Source: a virus. Taken from it: a DNA stretch of 39,023 nucleotides. Location of the stretch: IMG/VR virus record IMGVR_UViG_3300020027_000019, positions 1-39,023 of that record; one strand, written 5' to 3'. The position numbers were made by a program, and so were the translations under genes. Shown one piece after another: positions 20,443 through 21,214 of the stretch. The notes beneath the pieces are model-generated. The model was given only the letters and a program-made list of their open reading frames with translations, made no database searches and was not told the DNA's origin. Each line of letters starts with the position of its first letter. Position 1 is the first letter of the stretch.

Positions 20443-20546
20443 AACCGACCGTTTCCGAAAGGTGAGTAAATCAAAATACAATAAGGTGATCGTAAATGCT
20501 CGATCGTGGGTGTCACAGCATCCTATTAGCCTTGCGACGGTCGGTT
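20443..20546 (+). ncRNA. Structured RNA element E1
   Basis: A 104-nt element closed by a perfect 10-bp stem, AACCGACCGT (20443-20452) with ACGGTCGGTT (20537-20546). Inside are CC-GAAA-GG, then GGTGAGTAAA, a hairpin GATCG-TAAATGCT-CGATC (20488-20505), TGGGTG and CATCCTATT. The same order with the same loop sequences but different stem bases is found in E2 (21106-21214). TTTT follows the closing stem. A small gene starts 24 nt downstream, so it may be a leader element or an independent RNA. I do not recognise a known family. Confidence 0.6.
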
Positions 20547-20569
20547 TTAAGAATTTAATTAACTATAAT

Positions 20570-20764
20570 ATGAAATACGAAGAAAAAACATTGATACAGC
20601 TTTTAGAAGAAGCAGGTGTAAAAATACTGTACAACAACCCTAAGTATAAAGCTCCTAGTCATTTAGAGTATAACGGTAAAACAATAATTGCGCCTTCGGC
20701 TAACAGATGTATTGAGGTTGTAAAGCGAGAATTTGGAATTGACTTAACAACATTTGATGATTAG
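20570..20764 (+). CDS. Hypothetical 64-residue protein behind RNA element E1
   Basis: Starts at ATG 20570 (MKYEEKTLIQLLEEAGVKIL...). The frame is open upstream to a TTG at 20405, but that part runs through the folded elements and is not protein-like. The product looks like a compact alpha/beta domain (KTIIAPSANRCIEVVKREFG). No family recognised. It ends 11 nt before the Met-type tRNA and is probably co-transcribed with it. Confidence 0.6.
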   Translation: MKYEEKTLIQLLEEAGVKILYNNPKYKAPSHLEYNGKTIIAPSANRCIEVVKREFGIDLTTFDD

Positions 20765-20775
20765 TTCTTTAAAAT

Positions 20776-20848
20776 CACGTGGTAGAGCAGTTGGTAGCTC
20801 GTCGGGCTCATAACCCGAAGGTCATCAGTTCGAGTCTGATCTACGTGA
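20776..20848 (+). tRNA. tRNA-Met(CAT), initiator-like
   Basis: A full cloverleaf: acceptor CACGTGG/CTACGTG, D arm GAGC/GCTC, anticodon arm TCGGG-CTCATAA-CCCGA with anticodon CAT, T arm ATCAG-TTCGAGT-CTGAT, discriminator A; CCA is not encoded. The core (AGCTCGTCGGGCTCATAACC) is that of bacterial initiator tRNA, including three consecutive G:C pairs in the anticodon stem, but position 1 pairs with 72 as C:G, which initiators normally avoid. It could also be read as an Ile tRNA if the wobble C is modified to lysidine. Confidence 0.92.
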
Positions 20849-20881
20849 CGATACTTAATATAATGGCTTTATATTGAAATT

Positions 20882-20958
20882 GTAGGATAACGTGCCATCC
20901 ATTACCAACGGGATTTAATTAATCTTAAATGTGCGTTTTGGTAAAAAGAAAGCCCTAC
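20882..20958 (+). other. Folded spacer between the two tRNAs
   Basis: GTAGG (20882-20886) pairs with CCTAC (20954-20958); inside, TTACCAA (20902-20908) pairs with TTGGTAA (20938-20944) around a GATT/AATC hairpin (20912-20924). Further on, GCCTTT (20990-20995) pairs with AAAGGC (21003-21008) just before the Glu tRNA. These may be processing structures of the polycistronic transcript or another RNA element. Confidence 0.35.
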
Positions 20959-21013
20959 TGAAAGGAAAGTTCACAACTAAACCTGCTTAGCCTTTGGAAT
21001 GTAAAGGCAACAC

Positions 21014-21087
21014 ACACCGTTGGACAAATTGGTTAAGTCGTCACCCTTTCACGGTGAAGATCATGGGTTCAAATCCCATACGGTGTA
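21014..21087 (+). tRNA. tRNA-Glu(TTC)
   Basis: Acceptor ACACCGT/ACGGTGT is perfectly paired, D arm GAC/GTC with TTGG in the loop, anticodon arm TCACC-CTTTCAC-GGTGA with anticodon TTC, T arm ATGGG-TTCAAAT-CCCAT, discriminator A. CCA is not encoded. It lies in the same apparent transcript as the Met-type tRNA. Confidence 0.93.
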
Positions 21088-21105
21088 CAAACTATTTAAG
21101 CAAGA

Positions 21106-21214
21106 AAAAACGGTATACCTACTAGTTAGGGTGAGTCAAAAGTAAGGCGATAGGGGACTATAAATGCATAGTCATGGGTGCCTCATACATCCTGTTTTCC
21201 AGCGTGCCGTTTTT
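21106..21214 (+). ncRNA. Structured RNA element E2, paralogue of E1
   Basis: A 109-nt element closed by AAAAACGGTA (21106-21115) with TGCCGTTTTT (21205-21214), one G:U pair. Inside are CCTA-CTAGT-TAGG, GGTGAGTCAAAAG, a hairpin GACTA-TAAATGCA-TAGTC (21156-21173), ATGGGTG and CATCCTGTT. Loops and linkers match E1, while the P4 stem is GACTA/TAGTC instead of GATCG/CGATC, a compensated change. A T-rich run follows the closing stem and a gene starts 16 nt later. Confidence 0.6.

Follow-up and report, generated by a model that had tools for sequence, protein, structure and literature searches.

The elements E1 and E2, which lie behind the portal gene of a 39,023-nucleotide virus record (the whole of which is referred to here as the window), are two paralogous members of a family of structured RNAs that matches no Rfam 15 family and is found mostly in the tRNA islands of phages and prophages. 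The family, its fold, its tRNA-island and phage settings and the absence of a constant protein neighbour are observed directly. The reading preferred here, to which a probability of roughly 45% is assigned, is that E is a stand-alone stable RNA which is released from a tRNA-type precursor and acts in trans; transcription from a promoter, release through tRNA processing, stability, and trans action on a target would be the presumptive components of this reading.

The sequences that the earlier note quoted for E1 and E2 are exact at every position, and E1 and E2 do share, in identical order, the blocks that it listed (GGTGAGT-NAA, TAAATGC within a loop of 8 nt, TGGGTG and CATCCTRTT). In the window, the core pattern TAAATGC-TGGGTG-CATCCT is matched exactly twice, whereas 100 dinucleotide shuffles yield no match. 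The outer stems and the P4 stems differ in sequence between the copies with their pairing kept, as had been claimed. The first covariance model, R1, was built from E1 and the elements of loci L008, L030, L029, L009 and L035; E2 was omitted because MAFFT misaligned its P1/P2 region, and the omission then served as a test of paralogy, in which R1 recovered E2 at 51.8 bits (E 7.4e-9). A second model, R2, built from 26 sequences and run on the window with filters off, detects both copies at the scores given in Table 1, and its next-best site reaches 16.9 bits. Two other interpretations of the sequence were rejected: E is not coding, since the small ATG frames in E1 and E2 are lost in homologues and length differences are not multiples of three, and a pairing of the 5' GGGTG of E2 with CATCC was dropped because it is impossible in E1.

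The case for selection on the fold, which the earlier note drew from compensated changes in two copies, now extends to 29 distinct sequences. In the alignment of these sequences (A8) the fold comprises 28 pairs in seven helices, candidate pseudoknot included, and is fuller than the one first described. In A8, which is biased towards the modelled pairs because it was fitted to that model, 97.0% of 794 cells are paired, compared with 34-50% in slid controls, and 24 of the 28 pairs show compensatory changes on both sides. The structure claim survives the check for homologues that break P1 or P4; these two helices switch among many kinds of pair, and the observed covariation was reached by none of 500 shuffles. 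RNAalifold, applied to alignment A6, recovers P1, P2, P4 and P6 and proposed a GUA/UAC helix, and a scan of all column pairs gives its top scores to pairs of the model. Outside the helices, the nucleotides TGAG, CAANAAGG, AAANGCT and GCG are unpaired and strongly conserved.

The best covariation signal outside the model involves the G of the 8-nt loop, which, set against the GCG that precedes the 3' strand of P1, gives 19 GC, five UA and one CG combination and one mismatch. The loop may thus pair with the 3'-strand GCG in a candidate pseudoknot that comprises two pairs, or perhaps three, and for which support is moderate because the second pair is invariant and the loop position correlates about equally with another column (59-87). 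The members in L102-L104 have no alignable loop at this position.

Homologues of E occur in phages of Sphingobacterium and related bacteria. Two phages that were found through their portal protein carry E1-like elements at the equivalent site (L008 8050-8148 and L009 7621-7720), and nine contigs, all with a match length of 71 nt, came from a descriptor scan of IMG/VR. R1 detects second copies adjoining the first in L008, L029, L030, L033 and L035, a copy in the Sphingobacterium corticibacter genome G017, and members in 9 of 400 genomes of the Sphingobacteriaceae, the centre genome counted. R2 finds the family in 14 of 400 genomes of the order and in 10 of 94 genomes of the genus of S. corticibacter, with weaker members elsewhere in the order. 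Its only match among 395 genomes of the phylum and 295 of the class is the centre genome, and this null result doubles as a specificity control. The family, with members about 100-130 nt long, is present in more than 12 IMG/VR phage contigs and in Sphingobacteriaceae prophages, and further viral contigs were found through patterns. Patterns of the L102/L103 and E2 types yielded no additional viral contigs, and blastn of E1 against the phage collection gave zero matches. Weak model hits of 15-19 bits in L069, L076 and L082 were excluded from membership, and six IMG/VR hits to a loose three-block pattern were judged to be chance matches, the sequence being unrelated and without tRNAs.

The window is the record of a temperate phage, with an integrase-like protein (2203-3465), a protein like recombination directionality factors (5853-6638), terminase subunits, a portal, a capsid protein and a minor tail protein; its closest TerL in a bacterial genome is 81% identical and belongs to S. 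corticibacter locus L022. The portal gene ends at 20236 and is followed by a promoter motif and a mostly non-coding stretch, in which the order is E3, E1, a 64-aa ORF, a boxA-like sequence, tRNA-Met, element M, tRNA-Glu, E2 and a 107-aa ORF (Table 1). The motif, which is taken from general knowledge to be of the Bacteroidota promoter type, has comparable counterparts 3' of the portal gene in L009, L091, L093 and L095. boxA is a signal of the antitermination leaders of rRNA and tRNA transcripts, and from this the boxA-like sequence of the window presumably has an antitermination role. Homologues of E3 occur in L016 (~6160) and in L017 and L019 (~7850), where the closing stem is AGGCC/GGTCT. Element M, which sits shortly 5' of a tRNA or tRNA-like unit, has counterparts in L062 (~3660) and L093 (~7410).

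Table 1. Features of the RNA island in the window, with helices of E1 and E2 and elements of related loci (L numbers); positions are those of the window unless a locus is given.
Feature	Position or sequence	Strand	Basis
Candidate Bacteroidota-type promoter, TTTG-19-TATATTTG	20307..20337	+	motif match, shortly past portal stop
Small hairpin TTAGC-GCGAG-GCTAA, start of predicted transcript	20343..20357	+	sequence, fold
E3, third structured element, closing stem AGGTC...GACCT	20366..20434	+	fold, homologues
E1, RNA family copy 1	20443..20546	+	R2 89.5 bits, E 4e-23; pair counts
E1 P1	20443-20452/20537-20546	+	model fold
E1 P2	CC-GAAA-GG	+	model fold
E1 P3	20466-20468/20477-20479	+	model fold
E1 P4	20488-20492/20501-20505, loop 20493-20500	+	model fold
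E1 P5	AGG/CCU	+	model fold
E1 P6	20508-20512/20519-20523	+	model fold
E1 candidate pseudoknot	20498-20499 with 20534-20535	+	covariation
Small ORF, 64 aa	20570..20764	+	ATG 20570
boxA-like GTTCTTTAA, directly 5' of tRNA-Met	20764..20772	+	sequence motif
tRNA-Met (CAT)	20776..20849	+	tRNA search
Element M, between tRNA-Met and tRNA-Glu	~20880..21008	+	GAAAGGAAAGTTC...CTAAACCTGCTTANCCTTTG common to L062, L093
tRNA-Glu (TTC)	21014..21088	+	tRNA search
E2, RNA family copy 2, 18 nt 3' of tRNA-Glu	21106..21214	+	R1 51.8 bits; R2 83.3 bits
E2 P1	21106-21115/21205-21214	+	model fold
Small ORF, 107 aa	21231..21554	+	ATG 21231
tRNA-like units	L008 8659-8750; L016 6837-6955; L017 8491-8600; L092 8402-8519; L093 7654-7744 and 7812-7943; L096 8081-8172; L100 7810-7900; L101 7785-7904		
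TTCATAATTTAGGTTNATAATTGGTT element	L008 8752; L011 7801; L016 7186; L018 8431; L022 13345; L091 7711; ~15 more		
~200-nt RNA with GGACTGTAAATCC	L016 ~6950-7190; L019 8820-9050; L092 8515-8745; L096 ~7470-7730 (minus)		

The distribution of E across these loci bears directly on the suggestion that each copy works as a leader switch (riboswitch or attenuator) for the small gene downstream. Both copies in the window do have a small ORF within 24 nt downstream, as the earlier note stated (24 nt after E1 and 17 nt after E2), and P1 with the T residues that follow could resemble a terminator. A riboswitch would occupy a fixed position upstream of a constant gene set; instead, the neighbours of E vary, and in homologous loci E is mostly followed by a further E, by a tRNA or tRNA-like unit, or by a hairpin that resembles a terminator. 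Homologues of the 64-aa ORF (in L101, 54% identical and ~1.1 kb away from the E element) and of the 107-aa ORF (in L016, L017, L019 and L035) do not lie directly 3' of an E element in those loci. The leader switch is very improbable because E occurs in at least six distinct phage gene contexts, none with a constant protein neighbour: after the portal gene, divergently oriented to the tape-measure gene, 5' of terminase-portal, in the early region beside a repressor or exonuclease gene, between the terminase and capsid genes and in the tail sheath region. This is the part of the earlier interpretation that is disfavoured, while paralogous structured RNAs, compensation and the lack of a known family stand. 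The same loci weigh on the idea that E serves as antitoxin RNA in a toxin-antitoxin module of type III or in an abortive-infection module, which would suit a small, probably pseudoknotted and sometimes tandem RNA next to small phage ORFs, but is extremely improbable: neither the 64-aa nor the 107-aa ORF has a match in Pfam, PHROG or PADLOC, these searches of the two adjacent ORFs found no endoribonuclease toxin gene, and the other loci have no constant protein neighbour.

Most copies instead have in common that they lie in a non-coding island, together with tRNAs and tRNA-like units encoded on their own strand. Within 71 kb around E there are 34 tRNA or acceptor-plus-T-arm units, versus 2 in 246 kb elsewhere in the same loci, a comparison that is valid within loci only because the loci had been selected for carrying E or portal; some of them are close relatives. 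Nine of the 30 tabulated copies lie 4-18 nt from a tRNA call on the same strand (18 nt for E2 of the window, 5 and 9 in L035, 8 in L095, 4 in L096, 11 in L097, 13 in L101, 10 in L106 and 12 in L030), a tight packing like that of a tRNA operon and one expected of a stable small RNA. The suggestion of a tRNA-associated factor is compatible with this location, and the small RNA that the earlier note listed as another option corresponds to the reading preferred here. The divergent members in L102, L103 and L104 have no nearby tRNA, and those in L102 and L103 are followed shortly by a hairpin and T-run, as for a stand-alone small RNA gene.

The Rfam 15 comparison upholds the view that E may be a new RNA class: E1 and E2 have no match even at E <= 5, and the homologues in 20 loci have none at E <= 0.1. 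E is not itself a tRNA by ARAGORN or RF00005, which find a cloverleaf only for the two flanking tRNAs. The tRNA cluster of phage T4 encodes two small stable RNAs of unclear function, species 1 and species 2, to which E can be likened by description only, as a short RNA among phage tRNAs, whereas the phage group and host phylum are different. The closer precedents are GOLLD and ROOL, structured RNAs of unclear function in phages and prophages that often lie near tRNA islands (PMC12286853). E resembles them in its setting, which is accordingly not new, but their length runs to hundreds of nucleotides and they assemble into cages, whereas E is unrelated to them in sequence and fold, and their Rfam models do not match it. 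No description of E or of Sphingobacterium phage RNAs was found in the part of the literature that was covered. The RNA family and its fold are new as judged by Rfam 15 and this literature, the sequence comparison being confined to families entered in Rfam.

The main rival to the preferred reading is that E represents a new class among the small self-cleaving ribozymes and would cut the polycistronic island transcript into units. This idea, which is judged rather unlikely, arises because two E-bearing islands hold hammerhead-like motifs: in L058/L098 a type III match that precedes E by about 10 nt, and in L033 a weaker motif. A compact fold of about 100 nt would suit a ribozyme, and so would the candidate pseudoknot, the strong conservation of unpaired nucleotides and the presence of several copies per prophage with changing neighbours, as is known for the small structured hammerhead ribozymes of prophages (PMC3088659). 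E itself, however, lacks the hammerhead core and has another helix topology; cmscan matches no known ribozyme class within it, the hammerhead-like hits falling outside. There is also no conserved sequence beyond P1 and no evident cleavage site, P1 closes the fold as an uninterrupted helix, E would be redundant where a hammerhead sits 10 nt away, and the stand-alone members without tRNAs leave little to process.

The hammerhead-like motifs can be described in their own right. The match at L058 1619-1674 (minus), which is that at L098 7583-7638 (minus), has an intact-looking core and scores 39.2 bits (E 8e-7), below the Rfam gathering score of 48.5. The motif at L033 ~1619-1663, which reads CTGATGA-stem-CGAAAC and may include a short stem III and a GTT site, is weak (26.4 bits against a gathering score of 52).

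A further alternative places the function of E in cis, as an RNA of processive antitermination or as a barrier to exonucleases or processing by which expression of the island is secured. The put RNAs of phage HK022 and the EAR elements are multi-helix RNAs near the 5' end of long transcripts, and E is likewise multi-helix and often first or second after promoter and leader hairpin (in the window, L009, L091, L093 and L095); boxA-like signals recur in the islands. Tandem copies spaced 6-24 nt apart (L035, L008 and L030) and the copies that flank short gene blocks would suit an element of processing or antitermination as well, and count against the stand-alone reading. Unlike put and EAR, E is found at far island ends and after tRNAs (E2 of the window, the second copy in L095, and L106) and as a lone gene right before a terminator-like hairpin (L102 and L103), and cmscan matches it to no Rfam family; a cis element is thus considered quite improbable.

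E is read as a released, self-acting RNA because it is packed tightly with tRNAs, has a long closing stem and has no constant gene beside it; the promoter and boxA-like signals of the window are also counted in favour. Under this preferred reading, E1 and E2 would be two genes for a compact, probably pseudoknotted RNA of about 100-110 nt, in an operon that is dedicated to non-coding RNA and follows the portal gene in a temperate phage of Sphingobacteriaceae. The promoter would drive the island, giving a precursor in which boxA-like signals accompany tRNAs and tRNA-like units; the E RNA would be excised as the tRNAs beside it are processed, and its ends would be shielded by the long stem P1. 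Once freed, E would act in trans, with the translation or tRNA machinery as its most likely target, or else against a host defence during infection. The broader proposition, that E is a new functional RNA class (either a self-cleaving ribozyme or a trans-acting RNA whose target is the translation machinery or tRNA-targeting defence) and belongs to multi-family, cassette-like islands of Sphingobacteriaceae phages, is on balance narrowly favoured.

The islands contain other conserved elements. Units of 91-132 nt have a 7-bp acceptor stem and a normal T-arm, with other sequence in place of the anticodon loop or arm, and are possibly processing signals, decoys or natural tRNA-scaffold RNAs. A leader hairpin, CCCAATAGCGAGAAGCNAACGACACGTAGTCGGTTGGG, is conserved upstream of E or of the island in L008, L016, L017, L019, L030, L092 and L100, with a variant in L062, L070, L091, L093, L095 and L110. 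The conserved sequence TTCATAATTTAGGTTNATAATTGGTT precedes a GC-rich hairpin, in most cases with a T-run; it lies in the interior of islands or at their 3' end, islands without E among them. A conserved RNA of about 200 nt has a terminator-like hairpin at its end and an internal anticodon arm like that of tRNA-Tyr (GGACTGTAAATCC).

With a strongly supported fold and no match among 4227 Rfam families, E adds a class to the few structured RNAs associated with phage tRNA islands. It is a far easier bench target than GOLLD or ROOL because it is short, occurs in tandem copies and is present in Sphingobacterium prophages. Together with the other conserved RNAs and the altered tRNA-like units that these islands contain, it may widen the view of what phage tRNA clusters are for.
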